NCBI GenBank assembly: GCA_020852855.1
Contig: JADZAA010000115.1
Span: forward strand, 1 to 42,226
Source of the DNA: Bacteroidota bacterium
Lineage (GTDB): Bacteria; Bacteroidota; Ignavibacteria; Kapaibacteriales; UBA961
Direction of reading: 5' to 3'
DNA length: 42,226 bases
Part shown: positions 123 to 9,981 of the stretch, piece after piece
Layout of the letters: each line of letters begins with the position of its first letter
How positions within the stretch are numbered: position 1 is the first letter of the stretch
Notes under the pieces: generated by a model
What the model saw: only the letters and a program-made list of their open reading frames with translations
Told to the model about the DNA's origin: nothing
The model's database searches: none
Made by a program: the position numbers and the translations under genes

Positions 123-298
123 ATTTATAGTATTTTCCTCATCGAATAAGATGTTTTTAACTTGTAATTTTGTTGTTTTTTCGGATTTCCGCGGTCAGGG
201 AATTAAAAATACAACTATTAGTGTTGTTTTTTACAACCCGTAAATCAACTTATTTGGTTATACTAAATTTTTAATGGATTAAATTTACAGAAAAATAA

Positions 299-3860: not shown

Positions 3861-4127
3861 ATGATTGAACAGAAACTGAAAATTAAAAATCGCGCCGGAC
3901 TGCACACGCGCCCTGCTGCAATGCTGGTAAAACTTGCCGCCAAATTCAAATCCGATATTTATTTGGAGCGCGACGGCTACGGAATCAACGCCAAAAGTAT
4001 AATCGGCGTTATGACACTTGCGGCCGAGCAAGGTTGCGAATTGCTTGTACGTGTAGAAGGCGAAGACGAACAAGCGGCGTTCGACGAGCTTTACGCATTG
4101 TTCGATTCGGGGTTCGGCGAATTGTAA
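3861..4127 (+). CDS. ptsH: HPr phosphocarrier protein
   Basis: This 88-residue protein carries phosphate in the PEP-dependent phosphotransferase chain. From the ATG at 3861 the active-site histidine falls at residue 15 in AGLHTRPA and the regulatory serine at residue 46 in NAKSIIGVM, exactly the canonical numbering, which fixes the start; an upstream in-frame start at 3774 would spoil it. The gene stands alone, with nth divergent and rrf2 downstream, and no EI, EII or HPr kinase gene nearby. Ser46 suggests control by an HPr kinase encoded elsewhere. A TATTTTTG box at 3790-3797 is a possible promoter element. In relatives with incomplete PTS, HPr is thought to act mainly in regulation (inference). 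Confidence 0.93.
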   Translation: MIEQKLKIKNRAGLHTRPAAMLVKLAAKFKSDIYLERDGYGINAKSIIGVMTLAAEQGCELLVRVEGEDEQAAFDELYALFDSGFGEL

Positions 4128-4228: not shown

Positions 4229-4260
4229 TTTGAAATACGACTAAATTTGTCGTATTTTTG
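4229..4260 (+). promoter_or_regulatory. Bacteroidetes-type promoter of the suf operon
   Basis: TTTG at 4229-4232 is followed after exactly 20 bp by TATTTTTG at 4253-4260, matching the known -33/-7 arrangement TTTG-N19-21-TAnnTTTG. A start would fall near 4265, giving a leader of about 65 nt to the rrf2 ATG at 4331. A second TAnnTTTG (4242-4249) overlaps but lacks a spaced TTTG. Confidence 0.6.
4233..4257. promoter_or_regulatory. Palindromic operator, IscR/Rrf2 type
   Basis: AAATACGAC and GTCGTATTT form perfect 9-bp arms around TAAATTT. The core GACTAAATTTGTC closely resembles the GACT-AT-rich-AGTC core described for IscR type 1 and related Rrf2 sites. It fills the spacer of the promoter at 4229-4260 and runs into the -7 box, a position expected for a repressor. 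The adjacent gene encodes a cysteine-bearing Rrf2 protein, so autoregulation of the suf operon is the natural reading. Confidence 0.65.
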
Positions 4261-4330
4261 CGGGCAATTAACATGATTTGCATCTTTTGCGAACAAGTTT
4301 TTGTGCGGGGTATTTTCCGAAGTTGCGGAT

Positions 4331-4753
4331 ATGCTTAGGCTTTCTAAAAGAATAGAATACGGATTGCTTGCCGTGCAGTTTATCGCTACACGTAACGGCG
4401 CGACTGCTACTGTGAAAGAAATAGCCGAGCAGCACAATATATCCTTTGAATTATTGGCAAAAGTGCTGAGTGCGCTTTCAAAGTCAGGTTTTCTTATCTC
4501 GTATCAGGGCAGCCAAGGCGGATATTCTTTGGCCATACCCGCTGAGCTTGTAACCGTTGCCGATATAATAGCGGTAGTGGAAGGACGGCAAAATATTGTG
4601 GATTGTACTTACGGCGTTATCGATTGCAACTGTGCGGCTTTTCATACATGCACAATCAAATCGCCCATGCAATTGCTACAAGAGCGTATAGACGATGTGT
4701 TTCGCTCGATGACAATAGCCGAATTGGCCGGTACGGCCGCGGCCTCGGCCTAA
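4331..4753 (+). CDS. Rrf2-family Fe-S sensing repressor (IscR/SufR-like)
   Basis: The 140-residue protein has an N-terminal winged helix (LSKRIEYGLLAVQFIA, then VKEIAEQHNIS and SQGGYSLA of the wing) and a C-terminal cysteine cluster C92-X6-C99-X-C101-X5-C107. Rrf2 repressors such as IscR use three cysteines here to hold a [2Fe-2S] cluster and report Fe-S status; C92 matches IscR numbering, and the fourth cysteine is extra. The ATG at 4331 gives the standard MLRLSKR start; an upstream TTG at 4301 is less likely. It is the first gene of the suf operon, 28 bp before sufB, and its probable operator lies in its own promoter. It likely represses the operon when clusters are plentiful. Confidence 0.85.
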   Translation: MLRLSKRIEYGLLAVQFIATRNGATATVKEIAEQHNISFELLAKVLSALSKSGFLISYQGSQGGYSLAIPAELVTVADIIAVVEGRQNIVDCTYGVIDCNCAAFHTCTIKSPMQLLQERIDDVFRSMTIAELAGTAAASA

Positions 4754-4781: not shown

Positions 4782-6230
4782 ATGAATACAGAAACTAATA
4801 TTCTCGACGATGTTGTCGGCGGCGAGTACAAATACGGTTTTGTAAGCAACATTGAGCAAGAAATAGCCCCGAAAGGACTTAGCGAAGACATTGTTCGCAT
4901 GATTTCGGCAAAGAAGGAAGAGCCGGAATGGATGCTTGAATGGCGATTGAAGGCTTATCGAAATTGGTTGGCAATGAAAGAACCGACCTGGGCAAACGTA
5001 AGTTTCCCTAAGGTAGATTTCAACGATATCAGCTATTATGCCGCACCAAAATCTAAAAAAGCGGCACCGAAATCACTCGACGAGATAGACCCCGAATTGC
5101 GCAGAACTTTCGACAAACTCGGAATTTCGCTTATAGAGCAAGAGCGTATCTCGGGAGTAGCCATAGATGCCGTGCTGGACAGCGTATCGGTTGCTACAAC
5201 GTTCAAAGACAAACTCGGCGCATTGGGCATAATTTTCTGCTCGATGAGCGAGGCTATACGAGAACATTCCGATATTGTGCGCAAATACATTGGCAGCGTA
5301 GTTCCGCCGTCGGATAATTTCTACGCCGCACTTAATTCGGCAGTATTCAGCGACGGTTCTTTCTGCTTTATTCCCAAGGGCGTTCGTTGCCCTATGGAAT
5401 TATCCACGTATTTCCGCATTAACGCAAAAGATACGGGACAATTCGAGCGCACGCTTATTATAGCCGAAGAAGGTGCTTACGCCAGCTATTTGGAGGGGTG
5501 TACCGCTCCCAAACGCGACGAAAATCAGATGCATGCGGCGGTAGTGGAAATTGTGGCGCATAAAAACGCCGAAATAAAATATTCTACCGTACAAAATTGG
5601 TATCCTGGTGATAAGGAAGGCAAAGGCGGTATCTATAATTTCGTAACCAAACGCGGAATATGTCTGGGCGACAACAGTAAAATATCTTGGACGCAAGTAG
5701 AAACAGGCTCGGCTATTACTTGGAAATACCCTGGCGTTGTGCTAAAAGGCGATAATTCCGTAGGTGAATTTTATTCGGTGGCTGTAACGAATAATTTTCA
5801 GCAGGCCGATACAGGCACTAAAATGATGCATATCGGAAAAAATACGCGCAGTCGAATAGTGTCAAAAGGAATTTCTGCCGGGCGTTCCAATAATAGTTAT
5901 CGCGGTTTGGTAAAAGTTAACAAAACAGCCGAAAATGCCCGAAACTTTTCGCAATGCGATTCGTTGCTCATAGGAAGCGACTGCGGCGCGCATACGTTCC
6001 CGTACATCGAGTCCGGCAATAAATCCGCGATTGTGGAACACGAAGCAACCACTTCCAAAATCGGCGAAGATATTCTATTTTATTGCAATCAACGCGGTAT
6101 ATCAACCGAAGAAGCCGTTGCACTGATAGTGAACGGGTATTGCAAGGAAGTTATGAATCAATTACCAATGGAATTCGCAGTGGAAGCTTCGCGCCTGCTC
6201 TCGGTTTCGCTCGAGGGAAGCGTAGGATAA
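4782..6230 (+). CDS. sufB: Fe-S cluster scaffold SufB
   Basis: This 482-residue protein is the cluster-building subunit of the SufBCD scaffold. Conserved blocks are clear: [13 protein letters not shown] near residue 50, [20 protein letters not shown] with the conserved Cys, [14 protein letters not shown], and the C-terminal [21 protein letters not shown]-type segment ending in [12 protein letters not shown]. The middle is the expected beta-helix. Length is typical of the family. It lies between rrf2 and the small CxxC protein, and partners SufC and SufD follow downstream. Confidence 0.97.
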
Positions 6231-6252: not shown

Positions 6253-6624
6253 ATGCTGAAAGTTTTTTATTATGCAAATTGCGAATCCTGCAAAAATGCA
6301 ATTCGCTTTTTCAAGAAAGAATTGGTTCGCGCCGACTATATCGAAATAATCGAGAACCCGCCGAGTGTAGAAGTTTTACGCATTATCTACGAATTAAGCG
6401 GCCGCGACCTGAAAAAAATGTTCAATACTACGGGCAGAGCATATTCTGCCATGAATCTCAAAAATAAGATGCCGTCCATGACAGCCGAACAAGCATTCGC
6501 GCTTATGTCTGCCAACGGAAAATTGATTAAACGCCCGATATTGCTCGCCTCGGACGACTGCATTATCGGCTTCGATACTCAAAAGTGGCTTGTTCTCGCG
6601 ATAAAAGAGGAAATGAACTCTTAA
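6253..6624 (+). CDS. ArsC/Spx-family thioredoxin-fold protein
   Basis: This 123-residue protein has the ArsC/Spx fold: an N-terminal strand followed by C10-E-S-C13, an EIIENPPSVEVLRII segment typical of the family, and KRPILLASDDCIIGFD near the end, equivalent to the (E/K)RP(I/V) block. Family members are glutaredoxin-linked arsenate reductases (single N-terminal Cys) or Spx regulators that bind RNA polymerase (CxxC). The CxxC pair here is closer to Spx, but the length also fits YffB-like proteins of unknown role. It starts 22 bp after sufB and ends 44 bp before sufC, in the middle of an otherwise standard suf order. That position suggests a redox job tied to cluster assembly; the actual function cannot be read from sequence. 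Confidence 0.75.
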   Translation: MLKVFYYANCESCKNAIRFFKKELVRADYIEIIENPPSVEVLRIIYELSGRDLKKMFNTTGRAYSAMNLKNKMPSMTAEQAFALMSANGKLIKRPILLASDDCIIGFDTQKWLVLAIKEEMNS

Positions 6625-6668: not shown

Positions 6669-7415
6669 ATGCTTGAAATTAAAAATCTGTTCGCAGAAAT
6701 CGAAGGGAAAAACATCCTAAACGGCGTTTCGCTTAACATCCGTCCGGGCGAAACCCATGCGATTATGGGGCCTAACGGCTCCGGCAAATCCACGCTGGCC
6801 TCGGTTTTAGCCGGACGCGAAGACTATGAGGTTACCAGCGGCGAAATTTTATTTGACGGGCACAGCCTGCTCGAAATGCAACCGGAGGAACGCGCACGCG
6901 CAGGTATATTTCTGGCTTTTCAATATCCGGTGGAAATTCCCGGTGTTTCAACTGCAAATTTCCTTAAAGCGGCGATGAACGAATTGCGAAAAAGTCGCGG
7001 ACAAGACCCGCTTGACGCTATGGATTTCCTTGCTCTTATGAGAGAAAAATCCAAACTAGTAGAAATTGACCGCAGTTTTTTGCAACGCTCGCTAAATGAA
7101 GGCTTCTCGGGCGGCGAGAAAAAACGCAATGAAGTTTTCCAGATGGCAATGCTCGAACCGAAACTTGCCATTCTCGACGAAACCGACTCGGGGCTGGATA
7201 TAGATGCCCTCAAAATCGTTTCAAACGGCGTAAACGCTTTGCGAAACGACAATAACGCATTCGTAATCATCACGCATTATCAACGCCTGCTGAATTACAT
7301 TATACCGGATTTTGTGCATGTATTTTATAAAGGCAAAATCGTCCGCTCCGGTGGGAAAGAACTTGCTCGAGAGCTGGAAGAGAAAGGTTACGACTGGCTG
7401 AAAGGCACGGCGTAA
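6669..7415 (+). CDS. sufC: SufC ABC-type ATPase
   Basis: This 248-residue ATPase drives conformational change of the SufBCD scaffold. Walker [10 protein letters not shown] is at about residues 34-42, the signature is FSGGEKKR (the form typical of SufC rather than a transporter), and Walker B is [16 protein letters not shown]. The H-loop histidine is in IITHYQR. It has no membrane partner. sufD starts 4 bp after its stop, so the two are translationally coupled. Confidence 0.97.
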
Positions 7416-7419
7416 TATT

Positions 7420-8721
7420 ATGGAAAATAATGATTTGCACGGTAAACTACTCGCAGACTTTCATCAGTTCGAGCAAACATTGAACGGCGGAATAAATATG
7501 CCGTTTCAAATATTGAGGCGCGAAGCTGCGGAACGTTTCCGCGCACTCGGCTTTCCGACCATACGGCTTGAGGAATGGAAGTATACGAATGTAATGCCGC
7601 TGATTAAGCATGATTATACGGCTTTGCCGGCCGCGGTGCCGCCCGTAGATGCTTTTCCCGCGCCGCCGGATTTCATTCCCGAAAATGCCGTTAAAATTAT
7701 TCTGATAAACGGCCGGTTCTCGCCGGATTACTCACTGCCGGACGCAATGCCCGCAGGCCTCGGCGTTTCCTCGTTCGATACAACCGATACGGAAACAAAG
7801 AATATGATTGGGAAAATACTCGATTTTTCCGACAATGCTTTCACAGCTTTAAACACCGCATTTGCGTATTACGGAGCAGTGCTGAAAATAGCCGACAATG
7901 CTAATATTTCACAACCTATAACCGTATTGAATTATACAGATGCACGCGACGCGGCAATCTTTGCACAACCGCGTTTGTTTATATACGCTGGACGCAATTC
8001 GCAGGCTTCGATTATCGAATATTCGGCAACCATAGGAGAGCAACCGGCATTAGTAAATTCCGCAATAGAAATCATAGCCGCAGAAAATTCATCTATTCGG
8101 CATTACATCATCCAAGACGATACGGCGGCAAAAATTACGGCTTCGCACATACGCCAGGCAGCTGCCAGCCTATATTACGCAGTAACGCTTACGCTCGGTG
8201 GGCATTTCGTTCGCAATACGGCCGTTGCGGAACTTGCCGCGCCAGGCGCAGAAGCGCATTTTTACGGACTTGCACTCGGTTCGGACAAACGGCTTATTGA
8301 CAATCACACAATGGTAGACCACGCCGCGCCGCATTGCCAAAGTAATGAGCATTACAATCACATTCTCGACGACCGTTCCACAGCTGTATTCAACGGAAAA
8401 ATATACGTGCGAAAAGGTGCGCAAAAAACAAATGCCTATCAGTCAAACAGAACAATTTTGATGTCGGGCAGTGCAACGATAAACAGCAAGCCGCAGCTAG
8501 AGATTTACGCCGACGACGTAAAATGTTCGCACGGTGCGACTTCCGGATGTTTGGACGAAACGTCTTTGTTCTATTTGCGCTCTCGCGGAATTTCCGAAGA
8601 GAAAGCCAAGGCACTTTTGCTTCACGCTTTTGCAGCCGAGATTTCGAATAAAATCCAAATTGGGAATACGCGCTTAAAGATTGATGAAATTATAGCAAAA
8701 CGGTTGCATGACGAGGAATAA
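7420..8721 (+). CDS. sufD: Fe-S cluster assembly protein SufD
   Basis: This 433-residue protein pairs with SufB on the SufC dimer. The N-terminal half is variable, as usual, with FPTIRLEEWKYTN recognisable near residues 43-56. The C-terminal half has the conserved DDVKCSHGATSGCLDETSLFYLRSRGI block, including the functional His in CSHGAT, followed by the helical KAKALLLHAFAAEI segment. It sits 4 bp after sufC, and its stop touches the sufS ATG directly. Confidence 0.96.
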   Translation: MENNDLHGKLLADFHQFEQTLNGGINMPFQILRREAAERFRALGFPTIRLEEWKYTNVMPLIKHDYTALPAAVPPVDAFPAPPDFIPENAVKIILINGRFSPDYSLPDAMPAGLGVSSFDTTDTETKNMIGKILDFSDNAFTALNTAFAYYGAVLKIADNANISQPITVLNYTDARDAAIFAQPRLFIYAGRNSQASIIEYSATIGEQPALVNSAIEIIAAENSSIRHYIIQDDTAAKITASHIRQAAASLYYAVTLTLGGHFVRNTAVAELAAPGAEAHFYGLALGSDKRLIDNHTMVDHAAPHCQSNEHYNHILDDRSTAVFNGKIYVRKGAQKTNAYQSNRTILMSGSATINSKPQLEIYADDVKCSHGATSGCLDETSLFYLRSRGISEEKAKALLLHAFAAEISNKIQIGNTRLKIDEIIAKRLHDEE

Positions 8722-9981
8722 ATGATAGTAAAAACCGAAATACCTCGGCAGCCGGAGCCGATTCACGCGCCCGATTGGTCGGCAGTTCGCCGCGATTTCC
8801 CCGCACTTGCGGTGGAAGTATACGGCAAACCTCTCGCTTACTTGGATAATGCCGCTACTGCGCATAAGCCGCAATCGGTTATTGACGCAATCGTGCGGCA
8901 TTACACGGAATCGAACGCAAACATTCATCGCGGCTCGCATTATCTCAGCCAAAAAGCAACCGACGAATACGAAAATGCCCGAAAAACCGTGGCGCAATTT
9001 ATCGGTGCAAGCGACAGAGAAATAATCTTCACTCGCGGTGCCACCGAATCGGTAAATCTCGCGGCGGCCACTTTCGGACGACGTTTTTTAGATACGGGCG
9101 ACGAAATAGTAGTCTCGGAAATGGAGCATCATTCGAATATCGTGCCGTGGCAAATGCTTTGCAAGGAAAAAGGTGCAAAGTTGCGAATTATCCCCGTTTC
9201 CGACAGCGGCGAATTGATAACGGATAATCTGGAAGCGTTTCTTGGCAATAGAACAAAACTTGTAGCATTGACTCATGTTTCCAATTCGCTCGGCACTATA
9301 AACCCTGTTCGAGAAATTGTGGCGGCCGCACGCGAACGCGGAATTGCGACTTTGCTCGACGGAGCGCAAGCCGTTCCGCATCTGCCGGTAAATATACGCG
9401 AGTTAGGTTGTGATTTCTATGCGTTTTCCGGACACAAGCTGTATGCGCCGTCGGGTATCGGCGTATTATTCGTCAGCAAACGGTTAATAGATGAATTGCC
9501 GCCCTATCAAACAGGCGGCGGTATGATTAGGCGCGTAACTTTAGAACGCTCAACTTTCGACGATGCACCCGGAAGATTTGAAGCGGGAACCCCGAATATT
9601 GAGGGTGCAATAGGATTGGCGGCCGCCATAGAATACGTGCAATTCATAGGGATAAGCCATATTGCTGCACGGGAGCAAGAGTTGCTTGGCTATGCAAACA
9701 AGAAATTGGCAGATGTTCCGGGCTTGAAAATATATGGCGAGGCAACCGAGAAAGCCTCTGTTATTTCTTTCACTCTCGGCGATATTCACCCGCACGATGT
9801 AGGCTCTTTTCTCGACCGCGAAGGTGTAGCCGCACGTGCCGGACATCATTGCAATCAACCCTTGTGGAGCCGTTTCGGCGTTCCGGCTACAACACGTGCT
9901 TCTATGGCGTTCTATAATACGGAGTCGGAAATTGACGCATTAGTCGAAGGGTTGCAGGCGGCCGTAAGTTTTTTCTCGTAA
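8722..9981 (+). CDS. sufS: Cysteine desulfurase SufS
   Basis: This 419-residue PLP enzyme takes sulfur from L-cysteine as a persulfide for cluster assembly. The PLP lysine is K239 in FSGHKLYAPSG, the substrate-binding ATESVNL and EMEHHSNIVPW motifs are present, and the persulfide cysteine is C377 in RAGHHCNQP, the class II (SufS) form with a short loop. The ATG immediately follows the sufD stop. SufS enzymes normally need a sulfur acceptor (SufE or SufU); neither gene follows here, as the next gene is dnaA on the opposite strand. The acceptor must lie elsewhere or be replaced. Confidence 0.97.
   Translation: MIVKTEIPRQPEPIHAPDWSAVRRDFPALAVEVYGKPLAYLDNAATAHKPQSVIDAIVRHYTESNANIHRGSHYLSQKATDEYENARKTVAQFIGASDREIIFTRGATESVNLAAATFGRRFLDTGDEIVVSEMEHHSNIVPWQMLCKEKGAKLRIIPVSDSGELITDNLEAFLGNRTKLVALTHVSNSLGTINPVREIVAAARERGIATLLDGAQAVPHLPVNIRELGCDFYAFSGHKLYAPSGIGVLFVSKRLIDELPPYQTGGGMIRRVTLERSTFDDAPGRFEAGTPNIEGAIGLAAAIEYVQFIGISHIAAREQELLGYANKKLADVPGLKIYGEATEKASVISFTLGDIHPHDVGSFLDREGVAARAGHHCNQPLWSRFGVPATTRASMAFYNTESEIDALVEGLQAAVSFFS

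Follow-up and report, generated by a model that had tools for sequence, protein, structure and literature searches.

A conserved palindrome in the suf promoter of Kapabacteria is a candidate operator for the adjacent Rrf2-family regulator

Introduction

In M. xanthus, holo-RisR represses isc and suf by way of GAC-N7-GTC sites that overlap the -10/-35 elements, and the Rrf2 group to which RisR belongs, IS6, includes Chlorobi (PMC9973013). IscR holds its [2Fe-2S] cluster with C92, C98, C104 and His107 (PMC6599224). The type-1 consensus of its sites in E. coli and P. aeruginosa is ATASYYGACTRWWWYAGTCRRSTAT, a pattern that in E. coli prefers holo-IscR, and site B of P. aeruginosa IscR sits between the -35 and -10 elements (PMC6599224). 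In ScNsrR the fourth cluster ligand is Asp8, which comes from the partner subunit (PMC5411485).

Here we analyze a suf locus of Kapabacteria on a contig of 42,226 nucleotides (JADZAA010000115.1), the whole of which we call the window. A preliminary description of this DNA had read an Rrf2/IscR-type operator in the suf promoter and had remarked that such sites are little described in this lineage. Our partial search of the literature agrees, having found no description of such Fe-S control in Kapabacteria. Rrf2 feedback on Fe-S assembly is itself already known; that the Kapabacteria represent a new case, with ligand and recognition residues of their own, appears well supported by the comparisons below.

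Results

A palindrome fills the promoter spacer upstream of rrf2

The regulator gene rrf2 (4331-4753, + strand, ATG at 4331) encodes a protein of 140 amino acids and lies downstream of an HPr gene on the same strand (3861-4127, +). It is followed, all on the + strand, by sufB (4782-6230; TIGR01980, 630 bits), an Spx/ArsC-like gene (6253-6624; TIGR01617, 85 bits, above its cut-off), sufC (6669-7415; TIGR01978, 374 bits), sufD (7420-8721; TIGR01981, 246 bits) and sufS, which encodes a SufS-family cysteine desulfurase (8722-9981; TIGR01979, 570 bits). Within the family of the window genome, genus g3 (L052, L195) also has an Spx/ArsC-like homologue in its suf operon, and none was detected in the suf operons of other families.

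Upstream of rrf2, positions 4229-4260 of the + strand match exactly a Bacteroidota-type promoter (TTTG and TAnnTTTG, 18-22 bp apart). The -33-type element TTTG (4229-4232) is separated by the 20-bp spacer AAATACGACTAAATTTGTCG (4233-4252) from the -7-type element TATTTTTG (4253-4260), and every letter of the TTTG-N20-TATTTTTG promoter given in the preliminary description is in place. Transcription would be expected to start near 4264-4267. A repeat finder returned a perfect 9-7-9 palindrome of 25 bp, AAATACGAC-TAAATTT-GTCGTATTT, which has no strand, spans 4233-4257 and fills the spacer. Its right arm shares 5 bp with the start of the -7 box, so the palindrome runs into that box, as had been claimed. 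The core of this putative operator, GACTAAATTTGTC (4239-4251, no strand), has the form GAC-N7-GTC; relatives mostly have GACTAAAATAGTC. The half-site TGTC in the window genome, where AGTC is usual, counts against the operator reading.

The promoter match by itself is at chance level and is not significant, with two matches to TTTG-N18-22-TAnnTTTG in the window and 1.5 expected. The palindrome is modestly unusual when the window sequence is taken alone: 0.3 perfect 9-7-9 palindromes are expected per window, and when the 200 bp preceding rrf2 were shuffled, one arose in 0.27% of cases. A search of the 2.8-Mb genome for the 25-mer, allowing three mismatches or fewer, gave no other location. A near-match at window positions 207-231 was set aside because it lacks the GAC/GTC core. 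The case from the window sequence alone is moderate, and the decisive evidence comes from conservation.

The site is conserved across Kapabacteria and stays with the head of the suf operon

We compared 49 genomes from 23 genera and 10 families of Kapabacteria, the window genome among them; Ca. Kapaibacterium and Ignavibacteria UBA2373 are among the relatives of the latter. Genome contigs were searched with SufB, each genome was scanned over the 200 bp that precede the leading gene of its suf operon, and the expected count was taken from dinucleotide-preserving shuffles. GACT-N5-AGTC with at most one mismatch was present in 41 of the 49 genomes, compared to 2.1 expected. These 41 genomes are kin to one another and do not amount to 41 independent events; all ten families are represented. 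Conservation upstream of suf in close relatives, on which the preliminary description had staked its proposal, is therefore found at the suf head in every family. Sites are degenerate in a few relatives (genus g7 of family f4 and part of genus g2 of family f1), and these count against the operator reading.

In each relative whose neighborhood was read, the gene for the closest Rrf2 lies in or beside the suf cluster. In families f1, f3, f5, f8, f9 and f10, rrf2 is the first gene of the operon and the site lies upstream of it. In families f2, f4, f6 and f7, rrf2 is found near the end of the operon, behind a ferredoxin gene, and the site precedes sufB, with none before the relocated rrf2. Within f4, genus g16 has a clear site and genus g7 a degenerate one. 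These differences in gene order among families are the strongest argument that the putative operator is tied to the head of the suf operon.

The pattern extends to some Ignavibacteria. Three of them have the site in two places: before sufB (L059, L068, L078) and ahead of an rrf2-iscS-like gene pair at a separate locus (L208, L206, L211). It is absent before sufB in five Ignavibacteria whose Rrf2 matches are all weak (L085, L089, L096, L099, L127) and in four others despite a similar Rrf2 beside a desulfurase gene (L094, L097, L102, L117), and we count the latter four against the operator reading. A different conserved stretch, AATCTTGACTnnnTTGTATAGATT, occurs within 140 bp upstream of sufB in L085, L094, L096, L097, L099, L102, L117 and L127, where it overlaps a sigma70-like promoter.

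Symmetry, promoter register and second copies

Alignment of 45 sites gave the consensus A-W-A-T-A-C-GACTAAAATAGTC-G-T-A-T-W-T, a symmetric sequence of 25 bp; 96% of sites have A at -5, and 100% have T at +19. In 21 of the 45 genomes TAnnTTTG starts exactly one base past the core. Among the columns of the -7 box, T15 is kept in 84%, A16 in 89%, T19 in 100% and T20 in 91% of the aligned sites. The -33 element is weakly conserved (exact TTTG in 7 of 45 sites, TTG in 13).

Three f3 genomes show a joint change of the two half-sites, from GAC..GTC to GAT..ATC, as would be expected for the site of a dimer. All three Kapabacteria with GAT..ATC (genera g21 and g24; L036, L051, L192), and none of the 46 others, encode Pro38-Tyr39 in the recognition helix. 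Ignavibacteria with Pro38-Tyr39 have GAC..GTC, so the link between helix and half-site is not clean and is a hint at most.

Many relatives carry a second copy of the operator approximately 43-89 bp downstream of the first (seen in f1, f8, f9 and f10), with a core that begins approximately 21-35 bases before the start codon. TTTG is absent from these start-codon-proximal copies, indicating that promoter box and operator are separable. No recognizable second copy was found in the window genome when 4261-4330 was read, which counts against the operator reading.

The Rrf2 protein carries three invariant cysteines and Glu9

The product of rrf2 belongs to the Rrf2 family (Pfam PF02082, 107.1 bits against a cut-off of 30, residues 4-133). 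The preliminary description had placed an Rrf2 protein with four cysteines ahead of the suf genes. The gene, its four cysteines and the suf genes are all there; as a conserved feature, the fourth cysteine does not hold up. In the alignment C92, C101, C107 and E9 are invariant (49 of 49 orthologues), and C99 is present in 16 of 49. The invariant residues correspond to an NsrR-type set, three cysteines plus an acidic residue at position 8 or 9, and are candidate cluster ligands by sequence. We take Glu9 to lie opposite Asp8 of ScNsrR, an assumption that comes from our own alignment of the conserved N-terminal stretch with the ScNsrR and EcIscR sequences.

The position of the IscR ligand His107 is Lys in the window protein and is not His in the aligned orthologues. 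Position 59 is Gln, and is Gln, His, Ala, Lys, Tyr or Leu in relatives. Both the missing IscR His ligand and the unconserved wing Arg59 count against the operator reading. In NCBIfam the protein falls in the Rrf2 superfamily, yet under every equivalog cut-off: the best equivalog, TIGR02944, gave 83.6 bits against a cut-off of 110.65, and the IscR equivalog, TIGR02010, 61.3 bits against 207.55. Judged by its predicted ligand set or by the NCBIfam equivalog cut-off, the window Rrf2 is not IscR. A predicted structural model had a mean pLDDT of 79.9, with values below 50 in the cluster loop (93-106); its fold matches were RsrR (top), CymR, IscR and NsrR, and such fold matching cannot tell Rrf2 subfamilies apart.

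The genome encodes a second Rrf2 (G000:C104:24607-24984; L203), which we count against the main reading. Its gene directly follows one that resembles MIP18/SufT by eye and may encode a second Fe-S-linked regulator.

Sites outside suf

The regulon was searched by sequence patterns, with the reversed pattern as a control. No other convincing site was found in the window genome by this search, suggesting that control is probably local. Outside suf, most one-mismatch matches were about as frequent as those of the reversed pattern, and a site at G000:C49:139935 with three mismatches was rejected because such matches are at control frequency.

Two sets of sites in relatives rest on fewer cases and are secondary observations. 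In five genomes of family f2 (G014, G030, G042, G047 and G052; L292, L297, L295, L302 and L303) the operator lies just before a DUF4856-like/imelysin operon, and in genus g2 (G001, G013; L300, L301) the initial part of the first gene of such an operon contains a perfect core. These positions suggest that relatives have a second target, one related to iron. The DUF4856 profile (PF16148) missed the imelysin-linked gene in most relatives, and the imelysin family recovered it; the window genome has no imelysin match. In G055, a tandem operator pair arranged as before suf precedes an ECF sigma factor gene (L265:1950-2022, G055:C50). Separately, the occurrence of GACAATTATAGTCGTAAATA and of a GTCGTATnTTTG stretch before the start of an IS607-like recombinase gene in f8 (L266, L268) is probably a coincidence of AT-rich promoters.

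Discussion

What the sequences show directly is a symmetric site, conserved at the suf head and linked to Rrf2 orthologues, and a set of candidate ligands. We think it highly probable that the adjacent Rrf2 protein uses the palindrome as its operator and that holo-Rrf2 represses suf by blocking its promoter, providing feedback from the cluster supply. An Rrf2 dimer carrying an Fe-S cluster, ligated by three Cys of one subunit and probably by Glu9 of the partner subunit, would bind the 25-bp site at 4233-4257. The bound dimer would mask the promoter spacer along with the initial part of the -7 box, thereby excluding RNA polymerase. Repression would extend to rrf2 itself and to sufB-spx-sufC-D-S, giving both autoregulation and product feedback. 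When Fe-S supply falls, the cluster would be lost, Rrf2 would leave the DNA and suf would be expressed. Given the position of the site, its likeness to type-1 sites, an adjacent regulator with candidate ligands and the RisR precedent, we infer promoter occlusion by holo-Rrf2; binding, repression rather than activation, the holo form as the binder and the type of cluster are parts of this proposal. The Fe-S feedback put forward in the preliminary description gains support from the order-wide conservation and from the register shared with the IscR type-1 consensus.

The Rrf2 protein could instead bind this operator and sense redox state as RsrR does, nitric oxide as NsrR does or iron as RirA does, so that suf induction would be a stress response. 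Three cysteines with an acidic residue at position 9 are nearer to NsrR/RsrR than to IscR (PMC5411485), and the sites before the DUF4856-like/imelysin operon in f2 and before the ECF sigma gene in G055 would fit an iron or stress regulon. However, the site is linked to suf throughout the order, and to an iscS-like gene in Ignavibacteria as well, and no convincing site turned up elsewhere in the window genome. The rank of RsrR as top fold match also points toward another signal, but subfamilies cannot be told apart in this way. We regard a signal of this kind as unlikely, though it is the alternative to which we give most weight. Activation of suf by apo-Rrf2 at this site would have a parallel in apo-IscR, which acts at type-2 sites in E. 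coli and activates suf there (as stated in PMC9973013). A site that lies between and over the -33/-7 elements is in the position of a repressor, however, and its pattern resembles type 1, the preference of holo-IscR in E. coli (PMC6599224); we consider such activation very improbable.

Somewhat less credit still is due to the idea that a different regulator binds the palindrome. The second Rrf2 at G000:C104:24607-24984, beside its MIP18/SufT-like neighbor, is one candidate, but the site tracks the suf-linked Rrf2 orthologues: the separate rrf2-iscS locus of three Ignavibacteria has its own copy, and the five Ignavibacteria whose Rrf2 matches are all weak have no site before sufB. The least probable reading is that the palindrome acts in RNA, as a hairpin or as a terminator after the HPr gene. 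The window transcript does fold to -10.8 kcal/mol (z -4.85), with U residues following. Of the eight sites folded, however, the stem is strong solely in the window genome; folding at the other seven, all homologues, is weak (-3.5 to -6.5 kcal/mol, z -0.6 to -2.0), it is the bases themselves that are conserved, and the palindrome was not among the results of a terminator scan. We rejected this reading.

Returning to repression by holo-Rrf2, the analysis predicts an operator, a regulator and a promoter geometry through which Kapabacteria would maintain Fe-S homeostasis. Tentatively, and with rather less than even confidence, we suggest that Kapabacteria and part of the Ignavibacteria share a distinct Rrf2 subfamily (three Cys plus Glu9, Lys44, no Arg59) that reads a type-1-like operator with different recognition residues. 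This subfamily would tie Fe-S status to suf throughout, and in some families to an imelysin operon and an ECF sigma factor as well, with the second operator at the start codon serving as an extra block. The order offers a natural series: the operator precedes rrf2 in some members and sufB in others, where rrf2 is located elsewhere; sites are single or tandem; and half-sites change symmetrically, together with changes in the recognition helix. This series makes directly testable how distant Rrf2 proteins reach the same GAC-N7-GTC core.

Comparison with characterized Rrf2 regulators

The Kapabacteria consensus shares with IscR type-1 sites the 25-bp palindrome, the ATA/TAT ends and a GACT-N5-AGTC core in the same register; the SYY/RRS positions of the IscR consensus are TAC/GTA here. 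The window site matches the type-1 consensus at 18 of 25 positions (72%), compared to 68% for P. aeruginosa site A and 76% for site B, and relatives match at 16-21 of 25. A single-sequence match of 18/25 is not significant, since shuffled windows reach 18-19; a match of at least 18/25 in 37 of 49 upstream regions compares with approximately 5% of shuffles. The proteins also differ: the window Rrf2 lacks the His ligand, spaces its cysteines 92/101/107 instead of 92/98/104, and has Ala43/Lys44 where IscR has Glu43/Gln44. The Streptomyces regulators NsrR and RsrR have the same fold, and at the position of Arg59 both RsrR and the window Rrf2 have Gln (PMC5411485, PMC9338935), whereas their targets (NO detoxification, redox) and operators are different. 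By name, TIGR02944, the SUF system regulator of the Xanthomonas type, is an Rrf2 regulator of suf; the window Rrf2 scores below its cut-off.

M. xanthus RisR is the closest characterized analogue. The two systems differ in the wing, where RisR has Arg59 and the window Rrf2 has Gln59, in the Bacteroidota-type promoter found here, and in targets, suf here as against isc plus suf. Both involve an Rrf2 regulator of Fe-S assembly genes (predicted, in the present case) with three comparable cysteines, C92, C102 and C108 in RisR and C92, C101 and C107 here. Both also have a GAC-N7-GTC core between AT-rich flanks, in a site that overlaps the promoter hexamers; in the window this core is GACTAAATTTGTC, and it is kept across the order.
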